Assembly: GCF_001433995.1 (NCBI RefSeq)
Contig: NZ_AZCX01000015.1
Span: 1 to 38,296, forward strand
From: Secundilactobacillus kimchicus JCM 15530
GTDB taxonomy: Bacteria; Bacillota; Bacilli; Lactobacillales; Lactobacillaceae
Length of the DNA: 38,296 bases
Direction: 5' to 3'
Position 1 is the first letter of the stretch. Every line of letters starts with the position of its first letter. Below the pieces are notes generated by a model that was not told the origin of the DNA, did not search any database, and saw only the letters and a list, made by a program, of their open reading frames with translations. This document shows, one piece after another, positions 10,101 to 36,140 of this stretch. The position numbers and the translations under genes were made by a program.

Positions 10101-10613
10101 CTAACCATGGTTAGTTGCGTGAATGGCTGTTAGAACGGCGTCGACAACCTCTTCCGGGGTTAAATCATCCGTCGCAATTTCAACATCACTCACTTCATGA
10201 TACCGACTATCCCGTTCACCTTTCAAGTCCACCAGTCCGCCGAGCCCTAACTTTTTAACTAGCGGACGAACATTATCCCCACTAAGACGGCTCAGGATAG
10301 TGGCTGGCGCGACGTCTAACAAGATGACTGGCACGTTACTGGCTTGCAACAGCGCCATGTTGGCCGCCTGGATTGGGGTACCACCCCCCGTTGATAAAAT
10401 ACCGTCGTCAGCCAAGGCGTCCTTTAACACTTGGTGTTCCATCGCTCGGAAGGCTTGCTCACCATCGTCATCGAAAATTTGCTGAACGGGTTTGCCCGCC
10501 CGTTCCACAATCATATCATCTAAGTCCCGGTGCGCTGTTTGCAGCTCATCAGCCAATAGCTGACCCACCGTGGTTTTGCCGCTCCCCATAAACCCAACTA
10601 AAATTGCTCGCAT
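10101..10613 (-). CDS. aroK: shikimate kinase
   Basis: A 170-aa shikimate kinase, which phosphorylates shikimate with ATP at the 3-hydroxyl in the cytoplasm. The Walker A loop GFMGSGKTTVG is at residues 7-17. The shikimate-binding Asp lies in HRDLDDMI (about 28-35). An Arg follows in EQAFRAMEH (about 52-60). The Walker B-like GGGTP is at about 77-81. The lid Arg lies in RPLVKKLG. AAGGAAG precedes the ATG. It sits 21 bp after tyrA in the aro operon. Length and motifs are normal for the family. Confidence 0.95.
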   Translation of the reverse strand: MRAILVGFMGSGKTTVGQLLADELQTAHRDLDDMIVERAGKPVQQIFDDDGEQAFRAMEHQVLKDALADDGILSTGGGTPIQAANMALLQASNVPVILLDVAPATILSRLSGDNVRPLVKKLGLGGLVDLKGERDSRYHEVSDVEIATDDLTPEEVVDAVLTAIHATNHG

Positions 10614-10634: not shown

Positions 10635-11483
10635 TTAATTCAACGTTTGACGGGCCCGTTGCGCCTGATCAAAAAATGCGTGAATGGCCGCTTGGTCCCC
10701 TGATTCAATCGCCTGCCGCAGCGTCGCAAGTTGTGCTTCAAAGGCGGTTAGTTCACCTAAAATGGCCTCGCGATTGCTGGTCATAATCGCCGTCCACATG
10801 GTCGGATCGGCCGCTGAAATCCGCGTGGTATCCCGAAAGCCACCAGCAGTACCGGCATGCCAGTTGGGTTCTCCGGCCAACTGCTGCTGCGCTGTATTCA
10901 TCAACGTAGCCGCCACAACGTGTGGTAAATGACTGGTCGTGCTCACGAGTTGATCGTGGCGGTCAGCCGATAGTTCAATGTAGTGAAACTGGGCGGGCGC
11001 CAATAAGCCCTTAAGTATGTCGAGCTGCGCCTCTGTCGCCGTTCCCGGGACTAAAAAGTAACTGGCGTGCATAAAGAGCTGAATAGCGCCCGCTGCACTC
11101 CCAGTTTTGTGGGATCCTGCCATCGGATGGCCGCCCAAGAAGGCCACGTGGCGATCCATCAACGGCTGAGCAGCCGCCAGCACCGCGGCTTTGGTACTAC
11201 CGACATCAGTCACTAGGACCCCCGGTTTTAAGTTCAGTCGCGCTAACGTTGCGAGTTGCGTTGTAATCACCGAGACCGGACCGGCCAGGATAATCACGTC
11301 AGCTTGAACCGCGCCAGTTTCAAAGTCGATTCGGTGATGCATCAACTGGTGGTCCAGCATAAACTGACTGGTATCCGAGTCTGGATCACTTCCCAACACC
11401 GTTGCGTCCGGCTTGCTTTTCCGAATCATCCGGGCAAGCGAACTGCCAATTAAGCCTAATCCGCTAATCAACACTGTCGTCAT
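10635..11483 (-). CDS. tyrA: prephenate dehydrogenase
   Basis: A 282-aa prephenate dehydrogenase that makes 4-hydroxyphenylpyruvate, the tyrosine precursor, from prephenate using NAD(P)+. The N-terminal Rossmann loop is GLGLIGSSLARMI (about residues 8-20). The catalytic and substrate region is GGHPMAGSHKTGS (about 116-128), with the conserved His and Ser. The C-terminal helical dimerisation domain contains HDQLVSTTSHLPHVVA. There is no C-terminal ACT domain, so feedback inhibition through that domain is not expected. Its ATG overlaps the aroA stop codon (ATGA). With the upstream chorismate mutase domain it completes chorismate to the tyrosine keto acid. Confidence 0.94.
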   Translation of the reverse strand: MTTVLISGLGLIGSSLARMIRKSKPDATVLGSDPDSDTSQFMLDHQLMHHRIDFETGAVQADVIILAGPVSVITTQLATLARLNLKPGVLVTDVGSTKAAVLAAAQPLMDRHVAFLGGHPMAGSHKTGSAAGAIQLFMHASYFLVPGTATEAQLDILKGLLAPAQFHYIELSADRHDQLVSTTSHLPHVVAATLMNTAQQQLAGEPNWHAGTAGGFRDTTRISAADPTMWTAIMTSNREAILGELTAFEAQLATLRQAIESGDQAAIHAFFDQAQRARQTLN

Positions 11484-12787
11484 GGCTGACCCACTTCCTT
11501 AGGGAGTAACGTCGCTAAGTCGGCGAAAAAGTTGGGGTAAGAGATCCCGACACTTTCCTCGCCAGCTAACCGCAACGGCGTTGCCACTAGCAGCGACGCA
11601 ATCGCCAGCACCATCCCAATCCGGTGATCGTTATGGGCGTCAAGATTGGCATCCGTGACGTGCCACGGCTGGCGGCCGTCAATCACAAAACCATCTGGTC
11701 GTTCTTCAATGGCAATCCCCAGTTTCTTAAATTCAGTCACCACCGCGCTGATTCGGTCGGTCTCCTTGACCCGGAGTTCCGAGGCCCCAATAATGGTCGA
11801 AATCCCATCAGCCTTAGCAGCTAACAATGCGACAAGTGGCAGCTCATCAATCACGGCAGGAATCGCCGTTTCACCGATTTCAATCGGCTTTAACTGGGCG
11901 GTTTCAATCGTCAAGTCCGCGACTGGTTCACCTTTGCTGGACCGCGGTACGACGGTCACTTGGCCGCCCATCCGCTGCAAAATATCTAACAAGCCCGTTC
12001 GCGTAGGGTTCATCCCAACGTTTTCCAGGGTTACTTTTGACCCGGGAACCAGGCTAGCGGCGACCATGAAAAACGCAGCCGATGACATATCCCCAGGAAC
12101 GGTCATGGTTTGACCATGCAGGGTCGGATGAGGTTGCACCGTAATGGTGATGCCATCGCTAGCAGTTTGAACATCGGCGCCAAATGCATTGAGCAGGCGT
12201 TCCGTATGATCCCGAGTGGGTAACTGTTCCACGATAGTACTTGGTCCATCCGCCTGTAGCGCTGCTAGAATTAACGCACTCTTCACTTGCGCACTCGCCA
12301 CTTGGAGGCGGCCGTTAAACGCGGTCAGTTGACGACCATGAACCGTGACTGGTAAATGCCCGTCGCTAGTTTCAATTTCAGCGTGCATGGCACCTAACGG
12401 GTCACTCACCCGGCGCATAGGGCGCTTTGAGAGGCTGGCATCACCAACCAACGTGCTGTCAAAGGTCTGACCAGCTAATAACCCCATGATCAAGCGGGTG
12501 GTCGTGCCAGAGTTGCCCATGTCTAACGGCGTTGAACTACCTGACAGCCCATTAAGCCCCACGCCTTCAATCGTCACCGTGTCCCCACTCCGAGAGATGG
12601 GGACGCCGAGTTGCTGAAACGCCGCTAACGTTGAGAGACAGTCAGCCGATGTTAAAAAATGGTGCAACACCGTTTGTCCCTGACTAATTGCGCCAAACAT
12701 GATGCCCCGGTGGGAGATACTTTTGTCCCCCGGTACCGTTAAATGGCCTTGGAGCCCCGCCTGTGGTTTTGAATTAAGTGTCTTCAT
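11480..12787 (-). CDS. aroA: 3-phosphoshikimate 1-carboxyvinyltransferase (EPSP synthase)
   Basis: A 435-aa EPSP synthase, the sixth step of the shikimate pathway, joining shikimate 3-phosphate and phosphoenolpyruvate. Visible signatures are PGDKSISHR near the N terminus (about residues 19-27), LDMGNSGTTTRL (about 87-98), the GDMSSAAFF segment near the middle, and the C-terminal RVKETDRISAV (family signature) and NDHRIGMVLAIA. GGAGAG precedes the ATG. It lies 16 bp after aroC and overlaps tyrA by four bases. Confidence 0.96.
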   Translation of the reverse strand: MKTLNSKPQAGLQGHLTVPGDKSISHRGIMFGAISQGQTVLHHFLTSADCLSTLAAFQQLGVPISRSGDTVTIEGVGLNGLSGSSTPLDMGNSGTTTRLIMGLLAGQTFDSTLVGDASLSKRPMRRVSDPLGAMHAEIETSDGHLPVTVHGRQLTAFNGRLQVASAQVKSALILAALQADGPSTIVEQLPTRDHTERLLNAFGADVQTASDGITITVQPHPTLHGQTMTVPGDMSSAAFFMVAASLVPGSKVTLENVGMNPTRTGLLDILQRMGGQVTVVPRSSKGEPVADLTIETAQLKPIEIGETAIPAVIDELPLVALLAAKADGISTIIGASELRVKETDRISAVVTEFKKLGIAIEERPDGFVIDGRQPWHVTDANLDAHNDHRIGMVLAIASLLVATPLRLAGEESVGISYPNFFADLATLLPKEVGQP

Positions 12788-12803: not shown

Positions 12804-13970
12804 TTAGTATTGGTTAAATTCGTCGCGGTAAGCGGCCAATTGGGCTTTCAACCGAGTCATATTGCTGCCATCAAAAGTATCCGTAATCGCCTTTGCTAAC
12901 TCAATGGCAACAACACTTTCAATAACGATTGAGGCTGGCACAATGGCTGTTGTATCCGAACGTTCGACGCTGGCTTTTTTAACTTCATGGGTGGTCACAT
13001 CAACGCTTTGAAGTGGCTTGTATAAGGTTGGAATCGGCTTCATAGCAGCCTTGATAATCACCGGCATTCCGTTCGTCATTCCACCCTCAAAGCCACCAAG
13101 ATGGTCCGAGTCCCGCGAAAACCCGGCGTCTTGTTGCCAGTCGATCTCATCCATGACCTGACTACCTAAGCTCGTGGCGGCCGTGAACCCGTCGCCAATC
13201 TCCACGCCCTTCATGGCGTTAACACCCATGACGGCGGCCGCTAACTTTGCGTCCAGCTTCGTGTCCCAACTGATGTAGCTTCCCAGACCGGCTGGGACGT
13301 TGGTCGCAACGACCCGGATAATGCCGCCGAGGGTATCCCCGTCTTTTTTGGTTTGGTCGATCAACGCGTGGATGTCGCCCACTTTGTCGTTTTCAACGAC
13401 TCGTAAGTCGTTTTTTGTGATTGCCGCTTCAATCTGGTCGACATCAACTGGATTTGTGGTGTCCGCCGCAACCGGTCCAATTTGCTGAACGTAACCGACT
13501 AACTGAATGCCCAATTGTGCTAATAGCTGCTTCGCCACTGCCCCGATGGCGACTCGAATGGCCGTTTCTCGGGCCGATGACCGTTCCAACACATTTCGTA
13601 GGTCGCGGTGCCCGTACTTCATACCACCAACAAGGTCGGCGTGGCCCGGCCGTGGTCGCTCAACCTTTCGCAGGGTATTTTCAGCTGATTCTTCGGCGGT
13701 TGGGTCCATAATTTTAGACCAGTGCGCGTGATCGCGATTGTTCACCACTAAAGCAATCGGTGAACCCAGAGTCATCTGATGCCGAACGCCACCCACGATT
13801 GTGACTTGGTCATGTTCGATTTGTTGGCGGTTTCCGCGGCCGTAGCCGCCTTGTCGGGCAGCTAACTGGGCGTTAATGGCCTCGATATCAAGTTTTAAGC
13901 CGGCCGGAATGCCTTCGATGATTCCCGTTAGTTGTGGTCCGTGTGATTCTCCTGCAGTTAAGTAGTTCAT
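12804..13970 (-). CDS. aroC: chorismate synthase
   Basis: A 388-aa chorismate synthase, which converts EPSP to chorismate with reduced FMN. The start MNYLTAGESHGPQLTGIIEG at 13970 is the family N terminus, with AAGG upstream; longer in-frame extensions are not used. The other signatures GYGRGNRQ, RPGHADLVGGMKYGHRDLRNVLERSSARETA (given in parts: RPGHADL, RSSARETA) and the C-terminal RSDTTAIVPAS are all present. The gene begins one base after the stop codon of the MFS-chorismate mutase gene, so translation is probably coupled. Confidence 0.96.
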   Translation of the reverse strand: MNYLTAGESHGPQLTGIIEGIPAGLKLDIEAINAQLAARQGGYGRGNRQQIEHDQVTIVGGVRHQMTLGSPIALVVNNRDHAHWSKIMDPTAEESAENTLRKVERPRPGHADLVGGMKYGHRDLRNVLERSSARETAIRVAIGAVAKQLLAQLGIQLVGYVQQIGPVAADTTNPVDVDQIEAAITKNDLRVVENDKVGDIHALIDQTKKDGDTLGGIIRVVATNVPAGLGSYISWDTKLDAKLAAAVMGVNAMKGVEIGDGFTAATSLGSQVMDEIDWQQDAGFSRDSDHLGGFEGGMTNGMPVIIKAAMKPIPTLYKPLQSVDVTTHEVKKASVERSDTTAIVPASIVIESVVAIELAKAITDTFDGSNMTRLKAQLAAYRDEFNQY

Positions 13971-13971
13971 G

Positions 13972-15474
13972 TTAAGCATCCTTTCCGTTACTCGTTTGAA
14001 GTGCACCGCGGCCATCCTGACTGAGGTCAGCGTCGGTCCGGGCATTAGATAAATCATGTTGGTAGTCACGTGAGGCACTCATGACAGTCTTGTAAATTTC
14101 TTGCATGTACGGTTTTGTTCGCTGGTTCGGATCAAAGTGGGCCACCCGTTCGAGTACCCGCTCTTCTCGACTTGCATCTAGTACGGGCAAGTGGGCTTCT
14201 TGTTTGGCTTCATTAACTGCTGTCACAGCATCAAACCGCTTGGCCAGCAACCGAACAATCAGCCGGTCCAGGTGATTAATGCGTTGACGAGCAGCTGTTA
14301 ACGACGTTTGTTTCCCCAGAGCCCACCAGACAATCAGCACCATGACCAACCCGATAATACCGACCAGGATGTCTGACCCAAGGGCGCTAGCAATGCTTTG
14401 CTTCGACAGCCAACCCGTGAAAATCGGCACGGTAAAGGTCGCAATACTGCCGAAAGTGAAGTAAGTTCCCGTAACCAGTCCTTTGTGAGCGGGATAGAGT
14501 CGCAAGAATAAGTTTAAAGCAACTTGCATCATCCCCCCTGCCGCCGTAAACCCAAAGATAAAGGCCGCAGCAGCCGTTAACCATTCCTGATGGGTGTTCA
14601 ACATGACAACCAGTGCTAACAACGAGACGGCATTGGCAACGACCAACAAGCGCGTTTCTGAAACTTGCCGCCGCAACAGGATGAAAATAACGATAACCCC
14701 CGTGATTGAGCCAATGCTGTAGAGTGACAGCAACCCGTGAGCAACAATCCCGCTGTAACCCAGTTCATTTGTCGCAAACAAAGTGATCCACTGAGTGAAC
14801 AAAATCATAATGGCCATGGTTGTGTACCCATAGATTGAAAGGGCAACGGTCGCCAACCAACGTTGGTTTTTAGGGAGTTGTGTGGCGGTCACAACGTCTT
14901 GCTGATCCGTTCGATTTCGCTCAGGGAAGGTGACCCGTGTCACTAATCCCAAGTTAATCACCAAAATGGTCGCCGCTAACATGAATGACCAACCATACCA
15001 CCAACTCCGAGCTTCAAGCAGCGTCACCAGTAGCGGTAAGATGAACTCACCCAGTGACATGAAGGCTTTAATGAAGACGTTTGAAGCACTTTCCTTTCCA
15101 CCCATTTCCATGAACGTGGGGTAAGTTCCCGAATCAAGGGCGGAATTAGCAATTCCGGCTAAAATAGCTAACCCATAGGCCGCCGTAATGTTAGTCACAA
15201 GTGGCATTCCCAAGAAGAAGACCAGATAAGTTAAAATCCCAACGTAAATCAAAAACTTGCGGCCAAACCGGTCTGACAGGTACCCAAACGTAAAGTAAGC
15301 CAGCAAGCGGCCAATTCCAATCCCCGATACCACGTAGGAAACGGTCGCAATAGGCACATTCCAAAAGTGACCTAGTGCCTGCATATTTTGAGTCAAGATA
15401 ATCAGGCCAATTCCGTGGACGAGGTAGTTCAGGTAAAGGCTGATGGCTAAAGCTTTCTTGTTGGTAGTTGTCAT
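13972..15474 (-). CDS. MFS transporter fused to an AroQ-type chorismate mutase domain
   Basis: A 500-aa fusion. Residues about 5-385 are a complete twelve-helix MFS transporter, with FGYLSDRFGRKFLIYVG as the motif A loop after helix 2. Residues about 393-472 match type II (AroQ) chorismate mutase: ARQRINHLDRLIVRLLAKR, then a second helix with NEAKQEAHLPVLD and SREERVLERV. Residues aligning with the catalytic AroQ set are R396, R413, K424 and R436/E437-E438. A polar 30-residue tail follows. The start at 15474 has GGAG upstream. It is the first structural gene of the aro operon, immediately before aroC, and follows the attenuator leader. The likely role is transport of a shikimate-pathway related compound plus chorismate to prephenate conversion; the transported substrate is unknown. 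Confidence 0.9.
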   Translation of the reverse strand: MTTTNKKALAISLYLNYLVHGIGLIILTQNMQALGHFWNVPIATVSYVVSGIGIGRLLAYFTFGYLSDRFGRKFLIYVGILTYLVFFLGMPLVTNITAAYGLAILAGIANSALDSGTYPTFMEMGGKESASNVFIKAFMSLGEFILPLLVTLLEARSWWYGWSFMLAATILVINLGLVTRVTFPERNRTDQQDVVTATQLPKNQRWLATVALSIYGYTTMAIMILFTQWITLFATNELGYSGIVAHGLLSLYSIGSITGVIVIFILLRRQVSETRLLVVANAVSLLALVVMLNTHQEWLTAAAAFIFGFTAAGGMMQVALNLFLRLYPAHKGLVTGTYFTFGSIATFTVPIFTGWLSKQSIASALGSDILVGIIGLVMVLIVWWALGKQTSLTAARQRINHLDRLIVRLLAKRFDAVTAVNEAKQEAHLPVLDASREERVLERVAHFDPNQRTKPYMQEIYKTVMSASRDYQHDLSNARTDADLSQDGRGALQTSNGKDA

Positions 15475-15501: not shown

Positions 15502-15540
15502 GAAAAAGAAAAAACCAGCTAGAGCGCACTCTAGCTGGTT
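15502..15540 (-). terminator. attenuator terminator (segments 3:4) of the aro leader
   Basis: On the minus strand AACCAGCTAGAG and CTCTAGCTGGTT (15513-15524 with 15529-15540) form a perfect 12-bp hairpin with a four-base loop followed by a run of T interrupted once. It lies between promoter and first gene, so it is a regulated leader terminator. Confidence 0.85.
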
Positions 15541-15569
15541 GGTTTTATCCCGTAAGAGACTTTTATTCA

Positions 15570-15594
15570 CCAGCTAGATCTCACGTCTAGCTGG
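15570..15594 (-). promoter_or_regulatory. attenuator hairpin (segments 1:2) of the aro leader
   Basis: CCAGCTAGA and TCTAGCTGG form a perfect 9-bp hairpin. Its 3' arm is also fully complementary to the 5' arm of the terminator hairpin at 15513-15540. Pairing 2:3 would therefore exclude the terminator, the standard attenuator logic. Confidence 0.75.
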
Positions 15595-15670
15595 CACACA
15601 ACAAAACATACGGCATGCTGGCTTTAGACGCGAACGCGTAATCCTTGCGCCCGCATCATCGTTGCGGACG

Positions 15671-15730
15671 CTATCTAAAGAAATAATAGCCGTAATAAAA
15701 GCCGTTAGCGTTTTGCCAAGTTGTTGTCAT
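15671..15730 (-). CDS. aromatic-rich leader peptide (attenuation)
   Basis: A 19-codon ORF reading MTTTWQNANGFYYGYYFFR followed by TAG. It contains one Trp, three Phe and four Tyr, eight aromatic residues in total, seven of them in the last nine codons. It has a GGGAGGG ribosome binding site nine bases upstream and begins about 24 nt after the predicted transcription start. A GC-rich hairpin (GCGTCCGCA pairing with TGCGGGCGC) starts at its stop codon. This is the composition and position of an amino-acid-biosynthesis leader peptide whose translation senses charged tRNA-Phe and tRNA-Tyr. It is too short for ordinary gene finders. Function is inferred; the ORF, its SD and the downstream hairpins are seen directly. 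Confidence 0.8.
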   Translation of the reverse strand: MTTTWQNANGFYYGYYFFR

Positions 15731-15760
15731 GTTGAAGTCCCTCCCATAAATGTTATTTTT

Positions 15761-15789
15761 ATTAAAACATACTACCAAAATCACGTCAA
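15761..15789 (-). promoter_or_regulatory. promoter of the aro operon
   Basis: TTGACG (15784-15789), 17-bp spacer, TTTAAT (15761-15766) on the minus strand. It starts 13 bp past the folP stop codon and about 31 bp before the leader peptide start. No terminator separates folP from it. Confidence 0.7.
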
Positions 15790-15802: not shown

Positions 15803-16942
15803 TTAATTTTCTTCAGGGGTCCAGTATCCCGCCTGGATTCGGTCAAACAACGTGACCAGTTGCTTAGTCTCTAAGACATCGTGAACCCTCAAGATTCGTC
15901 CACCTTGCTTCATCATCAAGGCCTCGTTCACCAGGGTCATTGGGAGCCGTTCGGTCTTTTTTAAGTCCAGTAATTTGGCTAGATATCCCTTATTAGAGAT
16001 TGCAATCATGAGTGGCCGATTAAAGTCGTTAAACCAGGCCATGTTTCGCATCATTGGGTAGTCCAGCTGTGAATCAGCCACGTTCGAAAACCCAATGCCA
16101 GGATCCAACGCAATCCGCCGTTCGTCAACTCCCGCTGCTTTAAGTTTTTGGAGGTTGTCTTTGAAGAATTGCCGCATTTCCGCTGTCAGCCGGGAAAAAT
16201 TGTGCTGCCGCATGTTCAACATCGTCAACACGCCAACCGTGCTTTGACCCATCATGGTTAATTTAATCGGATCGTCATCAAAACTATTGATGTCGTTCAT
16301 GATATCAACGTCCGCATCAAGAGCCGCCGCCATAACTGCTGGTTTATAGGTATCAATGGCCACTAAAACGTCGCCAAACCGTTGCTTAATGGCTTTAATG
16401 TACGGAATTGTGCGTTGAATCTCGACTTCTGGTGAGACCTCTTCATACCCCGGCCGCGTTGATTGGCCGTTGACTTCAATCACGTCAGCGCCTGCTGCCA
16501 GCATGGCGTCGACGTGGCTGAGAACCGCGTCTTCGGTCGTATAACGGCCGCCGTCGTAAAAGGAATCTGGTGTGATGTTCATAATGGCGTAAATTAACCC
16601 GTGGTTCGTCAGATCAAGACGACGGGACCCCACTTGCCAGATCAATTGGTGCCGGGCCAAAATTGCCGCCAGATCGGTGGCACCATCAGCATCTTGGAAC
16701 CAATCGGAAAAGTGGTCCCGCAACTGACTAATAGCGGGTGACGGTAATAAGACCGTCAGTGGCGTTTGAGTCACAAAAATAGCATCCAGCTGGGCCAACC
16801 GCAAATGCAGGCGGTCAGCTTCGGTGGTGCTGACATCTAGGAAGCATAATGCCAATAGCTGTTGCTGACTCATAAGCTGGCGAAACGCGGATTGTAGCCC
16901 TGATTGCTCGCCAATTGTCGTGGTCACATCGGTAATTTGCAT
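15803..16942 (-). CDS. folP: dihydropteroate synthase with an N-terminal extension
   Basis: A 379-aa dihydropteroate synthase, joining 6-hydroxymethyl-dihydropterin pyrophosphate to p-aminobenzoate; sulfonamides target this enzyme. The catalytic domain starts at about residue 115: YAIMNITPDSFYDGGRY, EVNGQSTRPG (canonical form DxGGESTRPG), AIDTYKP, NDINSF, LDPGIGF and the C-terminal RVHDV. Roughly 115 residues precede it, where the usual enzyme has almost none. The extension is acidic and helical and contains no motif I recognise. The gene begins two bases after the HAM1-like gene and is last in the folate operon. The substitution of N and Q in the EVNGQSTRPG loop is unusual but within the variation of the family. 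Confidence 0.93.
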   Translation of the reverse strand: MQITDVTTTIGEQSGLQSAFRQLMSQQQLLALCFLDVSTTEADRLHLRLAQLDAIFVTQTPLTVLLPSPAISQLRDHFSDWFQDADGATDLAAILARHQLIWQVGSRRLDLTNHGLIYAIMNITPDSFYDGGRYTTEDAVLSHVDAMLAAGADVIEVNGQSTRPGYEEVSPEVEIQRTIPYIKAIKQRFGDVLVAIDTYKPAVMAAALDADVDIMNDINSFDDDPIKLTMMGQSTVGVLTMLNMRQHNFSRLTAEMRQFFKDNLQKLKAAGVDERRIALDPGIGFSNVADSQLDYPMMRNMAWFNDFNRPLMIAISNKGYLAKLLDLKKTERLPMTLVNEALMMKQGGRILRVHDVLETKQLVTLFDRIQAGYWTPEEN

Positions 16943-29260: not shown

Positions 29261-30295
29261 TCATTTCTCTGATGATAATGAGTCATCCAGCGTCACGATG
29301 CTTGCTAACCGGGCCAAGTCCACGTTACCACCCGAAACAAGCGCTACCACTTTTTTATTTTTCAACCAGAAATCATCAATTTTATGCGCTTCAAGGGCAG
29401 CGGTGGGCAGTGCGCCCGCACCCTCCGTAACAATCTTCGTACGCTTCAACAAATCCTTCATGGCGTGGGCAATCTCACGTTCAGTGACCAAAACGACTTC
29501 GTCCACCAACCGACGACAGATTTCAAAGGTCATGTCACCAGGAGTGGCCACATCCGTGCCGTCCGCCAGGGTAAAGTCAGCATGCTGGGTGACAATATGA
29601 TCAGCCATGATTGACGCGGCCATACCATGAACGTTTTGAGACTGCACGCCCACCACGTGGATGCTCGGGTTATAGGACTTTAACGCCGTGGCGACACCAG
29701 AAATCAGACCCCCGCCACCAATTGGGACAATGACTGTGTCAACATCCCACATATCCTCTAAAATTTCGAGGCCAATTGTGCCTTGTCCTGCAATGACGTC
29801 CCGGTCATTAAAGGGTTCAATGACGGTTTTCCCGTCCTGTGCAGCGCACTCAAGCATCCAAGCATGAGCCGCATCAAAAGCGGCGCCGTGAATCACAACT
29901 TGAGCCCCATAGCTCGCGGTAGCCACCCGCTTTAGCTCTGGCGTTTCTTCAGGCATAACCACCGATGTCTCAATTCCAAGTAACTGACCAGTCAGGGCCA
30001 CTCCCTGGGCGTGATTACCCGCCGATGCAGCGATGACGCCACGCTGTTTTTCACTAATTGTCAGGTGGTTGAGCTTGTTATTGGCCCCACGGAATTTAAA
30101 AGAACCGGTCAGTTGCGTATTTTCTAATTTAAGGAACACGTCACCACCCGTCACGTTTCGGCTCAAAAACATCGACTGAATCAGTGGCGTCTTACGCGCA
30201 GTCGAGCGCAGGATCGTACGGGCCTCTTGGATATCATACATGTTGACTAAATTATAAGTTGCAGCGACGACACCATTAACGTTGGTATTGATCAT
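29261..30295 (-). CDS. ilvA: threonine ammonia-lyase (threonine dehydratase)
   Basis: A 344-aa PLP enzyme converting threonine to 2-oxobutyrate and ammonia. The PLP lysine lies in the family motif TGSFKFRGANNKL (about residues 64-76). ASAGNHAQGVALTG and PIGGGGLISGVATALK (the glycine-rich PLP phosphate loop) follow. The enzyme has the short catabolic-like length without the C-terminal regulatory ACT domains of biosynthetic IlvA. The ATG at 30295 has AAGGAG eight bases upstream. A T-box leader controls it, so it is tied to amino acid starvation, most simply isoleucine supply. Serine dehydratase activity is a possible alternative. Confidence 0.92.
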   Translation of the reverse strand: MINTNVNGVVAATYNLVNMYDIQEARTILRSTARKTPLIQSMFLSRNVTGGDVFLKLENTQLTGSFKFRGANNKLNHLTISEKQRGVIAASAGNHAQGVALTGQLLGIETSVVMPEETPELKRVATASYGAQVVIHGAAFDAAHAWMLECAAQDGKTVIEPFNDRDVIAGQGTIGLEILEDMWDVDTVIVPIGGGGLISGVATALKSYNPSIHVVGVQSQNVHGMAASIMADHIVTQHADFTLADGTDVATPGDMTFEICRRLVDEVVLVTEREIAHAMKDLLKRTKIVTEGAGALPTAALEAHKIDDFWLKNKKVVALVSGGNVDLARLASIVTLDDSLSSEK

Positions 30296-30333
30296 GACAG
30301 TCACTCCTTCAAATAAAGATTCATTTTAGACCA

Positions 30334-35965: not shown

Positions 35966-36140
35966 GATGATAGAAGCCGTTAGGTGAGGCTCCTATACGG
36001 AAAACGCTACTGCTCAGAAACGTCGAAAAACGCCAATGAGTCAGCTGTCCGGGTTAAAAGAAGGCCCAGTCTAATGTAGCTGTTACTAAACTAACTACGC
36101 CGTATAGTGCTAAAGCTCAACGATTGGCTAACCAACCCAT
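35966..36140 (+). promoter_or_regulatory. M-box (ykoK) magnesium riboswitch
   Basis: The conserved elements of the M-box are clear and in order: GTTAGGTGAGGCTCCTATA near the 5' side, CGCTACTGCTCAGAAACG, CGCCAATGAGTCA, and GCCGTATAGTGCTAAAGC then ACGATTG at the 3' side. Magnesium binding closes the aptamer and permits the terminator at 36167-36199 to form. Normally such switches precede Mg2+ transporter genes; here none follows. Confidence 0.92.

Follow-up and report, generated by a model that had tools for sequence, protein, structure and literature searches.

How a short peptide-coding leader could govern an aromatic amino acid operon from a distance is the question raised by the region between the end of a gene at 15803, which we take to be folP-like, and the start at 15474 of a gene encoding an MFS transporter fused to chorismate mutase. 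The region lies on the minus strand of the window, the whole 38,296-nt stretch of a Secundilactobacillus kimchicus JCM 15530 contig analysed here. The initial annotation proposed a Tyr/Phe leader-peptide attenuator, and pointed out that the gap of about 77 nt between the peptide's stop codon and the attenuator, with a hairpin at the stop codon, needs explaining. Our answer, held with good confidence, is a transcription attenuator worked by the ribosome, in which a relay of mutually exclusive RNA pairings reports on charged tRNA-Tyr/tRNA-Phe. Comparison among genomes supplies the leader ORF, the pathway-matched codons, the terminator and the coevolution of seven pairings; the ribosome-dependent states we infer.

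The promoter (15761-15789) was read directly as TTGACG (15789-15784), a 17-nt spacer and TTTAAT (15766-15761) with an extended TG; it is missing from the list of a consensus promoter scan because that scan requires the second hexamer to have A as its second base. In the same-genus sequences that were read, TATGTTTTAAT precedes the leader, with AATGTTTTAAT instead at locus L004. The Shine-Dalgarno sequence GGGAGGG (15739-15745), also read directly, serves a 19-codon leader ORF, MTTTWQNANGFYYGYYFFR (15671-15730, with stop TAG at 15673-15671), whose Tyr and Phe codons occupy 15700-15677. These elements, together with the hairpins at 15570-15594 and 15513-15540, the latter followed by T, were all found on the minus strand at the positions first assigned to them. 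Among the 33 ATG ORFs of 12-40 codons in the window that have an SD-like tetramer, the last 10 codons of this one include seven for aromatic residues, against two in the runner-up; seven were attained in 0 of 200 first-order Markov windows, on which ground a chance ORF was rejected.

The final leader codons include element A (15675-15694), made up of TACGGC (15694-15689) and CTTTAG (15680-15675) and pairable with element B. Hairpin H1 (15647-15671) begins at the last base of the stop codon, with H1a, GCGTCCGCA, at 15671-15663 and H1b, TGCGGGCGC, at 15655-15647. Element R, GCGTTCGC (15630-15637), is a near copy of H1a and an alternative partner of H1b in its place. Overlapping it is element B (15609-15632), which comprises CGCGTCTA (15632-15625), pairable with arm 1, and CTAAAG (15627-15622) plus GCCGTA (15614-15609), pairable with element A. 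Arm 1, CCAGCTAGA (15594-15586), starts 77 nt past the leader stop codon and forms hairpin 1:2 (15570-15594) with arm 2, TCTAGCTGG (15578-15570); TAGACGTG at 15589-15582, in the arm 1 region, is an additional possible partner of R/B. Arm 2 may also pair with arm 3 as an antiterminator. The intrinsic terminator 3:4 (15511-15540) consists of arm 3, AACCAGCTAGAG (15540-15529), arm 4, CTCTAGCTGGTT (15524-15513), and a T run. It has the longest stem among the sites listed by a window-wide terminator scan, which found seven sites against 6.7 in shuffled sequence and thus no excess overall. The 269-nt leader folds with z = -4.9 relative to shuffles.

That an aromatic amino acid operon follows was borne out by Pfam, which supports the order MFS-CM, aroC, aroA, tyrA, aroK, all on the minus strand: the MFS transporter fused to chorismate mutase type II (13972-15474; MFS_1 and CM_2), chorismate synthase (aroC, 12804-14078 as the listed ORF; PF01264), EPSP synthase (aroA, 11480-12787; PF00275), prephenate dehydrogenase (tyrA, 10635-11483; PF02153/PF20463) and shikimate kinase (aroK, 10101-10613; PF01202). 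The true start of aroC is probably near 13970, since the Pfam match begins at residue 31 of the reading. Besides the window, S. collinoides has the chorismate mutase fused to the MFS protein; in 10 of the genus's other genomes (L002, L007-L014, L020) it has a short gene of its own. That the terminator is simply the end of the upstream gene was considered and rejected: both the promoter and the leader ORF precede it, and its arms coevolve with arms 1 and 2. Elsewhere in the window, the only T-box match on its contig (30363-30592, minus strand, 80.7 bits, Rfam cut-off 93) lies upstream of a gene at 29261-30304, presumably threonine dehydratase-like, and an M-box magnesium riboswitch (RF00380, 121.5 bits) is found at 35969-36135 on the plus strand.

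Within the genus Secundilactobacillus leaders were read in 13 of 15 genomes, and in all 13 the leader precedes either the MFS gene or a chorismate mutase gene standing alone. A covariance model built from 12 same-genus leaders, R1, matches 14 of the 15 genomes (none in G008) and, at E <= 0.1, 138 of the 350 Lactobacillaceae genomes searched, spread over 23 of 40 genera; a second model, R2, built from 100 aligned matches, finds 159 of 350 genomes in 24 of 40 genera (E <= 0.001). Beyond the family, R1 matches 16 of 295 genomes of the order (own genome included), three of them from another family, with leaders ending in FYYGYFR, YFYGYFR and MYFSYFR, and R2 matches 27 of 398 genomes of the class (own genome included, E <= 0.01). 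Fourteen of the 19 new loci from the class search were read, and each of the 14 carries an aromatic-ended leader ORF; at 13 of them the next gene looks by eye like one for a TrpX-like substrate-binding protein, and at the remaining one, L152, it is an MFS gene resembling the window's. The initial annotation expected a Tyr/Phe stalling leader to be unusual in lactobacilli; the device is not confined to this organism.

For closer comparison 111 loci were used, comprising the same-genus loci and choices among the matches listed for R1, and so not a random sample. A leader ORF was found by a stated rule at all 111 (doubtful at L093, L095, L106 and L120), though part of this peptide conservation was selected by the search because R1 includes the last eight leader codons. 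An SD-like tetramer lies ahead of the chosen start at 102 of the 111, the choice of start being partly SD-based, and a terminator was located by the finder at 109.

Coevolution was assessed by a swapped-partner test, in which native partners were compared with partners taken from other clusters, using loci drawn from the 111 with L095 and L106 left out; 98 loci in 27 clusters entered, or 97 in 26 where arm 3 is involved, and 11 of the 111 lie outside these tests, the alignment A3 and the fold energies given below. The native pairing was better for A:B in 23 of 27 clusters (p = 9.4e-6), for H1a:H1b in 23/27 (p = 1.9e-6), for H1b:R in 24/27 (p = 1.5e-6), for R/B:1 in 22/27 (p = 2.3e-6), for 1:2 in 21/27 (p = 2.0e-5), for 2:3 in 24/26 (p = 1.3e-5) and for 3:4 in all 26 (p = 1.5e-8). 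Control pairings gave no native advantage (H1a:1, p 0.95; A:2, 0.14; R:3, 0.66; H1b:2, 0.74). All seven pairings also hold among the 81 Tyr-type leaders alone (22 clusters, p 2.4e-7 to 0.0021), where the controls again fail. In A3, with its 98 distinct rows, two of the pairings, R/B:1 and H1b:R, stood outside the model that produced the alignment. R/B:1 pairs up in 91.4% of cells, slid versions reaching no more than 38.8%, and it has 41 double-change cells against 16 in shuffles; the number of its pairs with double changes (3) and of its pair types is not above shuffles. H1b:R is paired in 92.7% of cells (slid, at most 66.1%), with changes on both sides at 7 of 8 pairs. For the two pairings that the alignment's model included, the figures are 95.3% of cells and both-side changes at 9 of 9 pairs in H1, and 94.9% and double changes at 6 of 8 pairs in 1:2. 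The alignment of leaders from related lactobacilli, the check originally suggested, therefore came out in favour of the attenuator, with the F/Y-rich short ORF kept and the hairpins covarying across genera, and the alternative pairing of the arms noticed in the window stands in the coevolution of 1:2, 2:3 and 3:4.

A sequence of events that would link these pairings can be proposed. With no ribosome on the leader, A:B would form, leaving arm 1 to pair with arm 2 and the terminator 3:4 to form. When amino acids are plentiful, a ribosome at the stop codon would mask H1a, so that H1b:R forms and R/B is trapped; 1:2 and 3:4 would then form and transcription would end. When Tyr or Phe is short, a ribosome stalled on the aromatic codons would mask A and leave H1 intact; R/B would be free to pair with arm 1, 2:3 would follow, and the operon would be transcribed past a terminator that does not form. 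The hairpin at the stop codon would thus act as the discriminator between a stalled and a finished ribosome, and element B would carry the signal across the gap of about 77 nt. The initial annotation asked for an explanation of that gap and its hairpin: the coevolving A:B, H1b:R and R/B:1 would bridge the gap, and it would be explained if the arms are reached through relay pairings. Of the original proposal that stalling shifts pairing to 2:3, the shift itself stands, 2:3 and 3:4 both coevolving, but the arms are probably reached via the further pairings and not directly.

These states were compared by fold energies, calculated for 97 loci in 26 clusters with the ribosome set to cover 12 nt, counted from the A-site codon's first base, and with the upstream RNA omitted; they are equilibrium values for single strands, negative meaning toward antitermination, and their absolute signs are weak. 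Antitermination is most favoured with A-site codons -9 to -3, where most Tyr and Phe codons are located, and least with the A site at -2, -1 or the stop codon, or with no ribosome. A stall at -4 differs from the stop-codon state by -2.5 kcal/mol (20 of 26 clusters, p = 0.004; in the other six the stall is not more antiterminating) and from the ribosome-free state by -4.1 kcal/mol (25 of 26, p = 2e-7), the stop-codon state itself being somewhat more antiterminating than none (-1.6 kcal/mol, 16 of 26, p = 0.016). Antitermination is favoured at 67% of the 97 loci for the stall at -4, 45% for the stop codon and 37% without a ribosome. A stall at Phe -2, the best-kept aromatic codon (94 of 97 leaders), brings no gain (+0.1). 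For the window's own leader every state is negative -- none -0.7, stop -1.8, stall -8.3, the lowest by far. Blocking H1b at 90 loci moved the stop state by -4.6 kcal/mol toward antitermination (21 of 24 clusters) and the stall state by -1.2 kcal/mol (19 of 24), in a calculation where H1a was anchored on a misplaced stop codon at some loci (20 of 100 in the set); modelled shifts like these would follow if H1b:R contributes to termination in the stop-codon state. Full-length minimum-energy folds frequently take a nested 1:4 plus 2:3 form, which makes the outcome depend on kinetics.

Three other readings of the leader have been weighed against the relay. In a classical trp-type attenuator, stalling would act straight on 1:2, 2:3 and 3:4, and the middle segment would be a spacer or a hairpin at which the polymerase pauses. 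The three hairpins do coevolve as in classical attenuators, and H1 could act as such a pause hairpin; but a ribosome's footprint is shorter than 77 nt, so that arm 1 starts outside it, and A:B, H1b:R and R/B:1 coevolve within the middle segment, which rejects a simple spacer, since a spacer would need no such pairings. This reading is accordingly considered unlikely. A T-box or TRAP-type leader, bound directly by tRNA or protein with the ORF incidental, comes to mind because both are common in Firmicutes, and T-box matches at E <= 0.001 number 43 in the genome itself, of which 10 exceed the family cut-off. A T-box at the leader was nevertheless rejected, no covariance-model match to RF00230 being found there, and the Tyr/Phe content of the leader ORF tracks the downstream genes, leaving this possibility with next to no weight.

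A nascent-peptide arrest like that of TnaC would place the sensing in the peptide: a C-terminal F-R-stop would stall at the stop codon upon free Tyr or Phe, mask H1a and force termination. The C-terminal end is indeed kept, with Phe at -2 as noted above and Arg at -1 in 56 of the 97 leaders, and with H1 at the stop codon the occupancy of that codon would be a distinct state. Arg is, however, replaced at -1 by Ser (20), Lys (12) or Met (5); the Phe codon at -2 is TTT in 104 of 104, with TTC at -3 in 24, so that codon choice appears to follow pairing, pointing to the RNA rather than the peptide; and leader ends with Tyr plus Phe and with Phe alone share one RNA layout. Peptide arrest is thus judged quite improbable, and attenuation by a relay of pairings is the reading carried forward here.

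As to its place among known attenuators, the leader has, at the level of sequence, a short ORF with a ribosome-binding site and regulatory codons, codons that fit the downstream pathway, and a mutually exclusive antiterminator and intrinsic terminator; its regulatory codons lie neither in nor beside arm 1, as they would in the classical layout, which is of the trp type and not universal among attenuators. Ribosome-mediated attenuators of the trp, phe and his operons are known from enterobacteria. For Firmicutes, accounts include the rli60-ilv attenuator of Listeria (PMC5864092), the leader-peptide attenuator of Staphylococcus aureus ilv (PMC5794164) and predicted his leader-peptide attenuators in bacilli (PMC2965389). 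With trp/phe/his, rli60-ilv and S. aureus ilv the window's leader shares a short ORF rich in regulatory codons and an exclusive antiterminator and terminator before biosynthetic genes; it differs from them in its aromatic specificity, the roughly 77 nt from stop codon to attenuator hairpins, the three-partner relay segment, the hairpin at the stop codon and the occurrence of its class in many Lactobacillaceae and beyond.

Neither the leader in the window nor 16 of its relatives match any Rfam family above threshold. RF01743, the Leu/phe leader that PMC2864571 lists for Lactococcus lactis only, is another leader element from Lactobacillales, its name pointing to Leu and Phe; a search of the window's leader with it gave no match at E <= 10. 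The uORFC-13-1 motif (aroF, Acholeplasma, 24 representatives; PMC8632094) resembles the leader in having a Phe-bearing uORF and an adjacent terminator ahead of an aromatic-pathway gene; it belongs to other bacteria and another gene, and the passages that describe the motif there do not include a relay. The trpB ncRNA motif RF04312 shares tandem hairpins ending in a terminator and scores 28.8 bits on 15593-15503, below its cut-off of 59 and covering the last two hairpins of the window's leader only. At L162 (1490-1599, minus strand) the same motif scores 47.4 bits against the cut-off of 59, and it may be kin to the leader class. The open-access literature that was searched yielded no report of a three-partner relay of this kind and no paper for six leader-peptide strings. 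The principle -- ribosome-mediated attenuation -- is ordinary, and the relay layout, the amino acids and the spread are new as far as the searches reach.

The first downstream genes, sorted by blastp clusters, with Pfam run on cluster representatives only, comprise 72 MFS and/or chorismate mutase, 11 aroE, 15 TrpX-like ABC and 7 PheA-like genes and 6 others, which leave 6 of the 111 loci unclassified by downstream gene. All 83 leaders preceding MFS/CM or aroE genes have Tyr within their last 11 residues, and all 22 preceding PheA-like or TrpX-like genes have Phe without Tyr there, some of the 22 carrying Tyr farther upstream. Six additional loci all had leaders too: three, in front of TrpX-like genes, were of the Phe type, and the other three had Tyr. 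The Phe-only rule for TrpX-like genes fails outside the 111 loci: in other families and at the Lactobacillaceae places matched by RF02863 (below), the leaders of such genes have Tyr, mostly plus Phe. Taken with the conserved F/Y-rich ORF and the covarying hairpins, a codon content that tracks the downstream genes supports, from sequence comparison, the Tyr/Phe leader-peptide attenuation of the original proposal.

TrpX-like ABC transporters stand behind Phe leaders with no Tyr near the end at L096, L110, L113 and similar loci, and the leader codons suggest phenylalanine as their substrate; the ABC protein matches the NCBIfam TrpX model below its cut-off (318 vs 390 bits). The short PheA-like proteins (HTLGP..TDS) at L111, L115, L120, L123, L128, L135 and L072 likewise follow leaders without Tyr near the end. 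Of the seven, two were searched: neither has a Pfam match at E <= 0.001, and one has a weak match, 0.022, to the NCBIfam prephenate dehydratase. A PDB search with a PheA-like protein found no relative, and the PheA-like label is a tentative one, drawn from sequence motifs plus that weak match. At L192 a similar leader (MQQLSHTLKSMYFSYFR) is followed by a gene for a membrane protein which, judged by eye, does not resemble the downstream genes of the other loci.

One of the PheA-like loci, L120, has a reduced form of the leader in which arms 3 and 4 are absent and the peptide, MTLLASTLLFR, has Leu in place of Phe, with one Phe only. Here the T run belongs to hairpin 1:2, and arm 1 has an 11-nt pairing with R/B, so that R/B:1 would itself be the antiterminator; this layout is consistent with R/B:1 signifying read-through.

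The class also touches a catalogued small RNA of Enterococcus faecium, sRNA_2410 (Rfam RF02863), described as a 195-nt RNA with two transcripts on Northern blots (PMC5593968); words beginning "leader" or "attenuat" are absent from the main text of that paper. RF02863 matches one relative of the leader above its cut-off (L167, 1430-1612, minus strand) and nine more below it; the relatives that it matches include L193-L198. In Lactobacillaceae it matches 16 of 101 genomes, four of them above cut-off. Each of the eight matches read in those four genomes (seven above and one below cut-off) has an aromatic-ended leader ORF, with endings such as RFYFSYFR or RYYYSYFR and the stop codon 14 nt into the match, and by eye all stand before a TrpX-like gene. 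Its below-cut-off matches overlap R1 matches at four places (G057:C31, G027:C1, G029:C34 and G066:C24), while its above-cut-off places are absent among the matches listed for R1 and R2; searched for in the window's leader (E <= 10) and in the window's own genome (E <= 0.01), it was found in neither. The ORF in all eight makes RF02863 appear a branch of the same attenuator class, though RF02863 is catalogued as a small RNA and the window's leader is not. On this sequence evidence the catalogued RNA is probably an attenuator leader, and its two Northern transcripts fit a terminated and a longer form.

Taken broadly, it seems on balance probable that relay attenuators for Tyr and/or Phe are widespread in Bacilli, with a hairpin at the stop codon and a three-partner segment, serving at least four kinds of operon (MFS/chorismate mutase-aro, aroE-aroD, the PheA-like gene and TrpX-like ABC transporters), that the substrates of many TrpX-like transporters are Phe and/or Tyr, and that sRNA_2410 is a terminated leader. 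Lactic acid bacteria would then gain a second large system for reading aromatic supply beside their T-boxes, with a mechanism open to arm-by-arm testing. The leader codons suggest substrates for the transporters that follow them, and a function is suggested for an Rfam family that at present counts as a small RNA. The three-partner relay would show the position of a ribosome acting on a terminator far past its own footprint.
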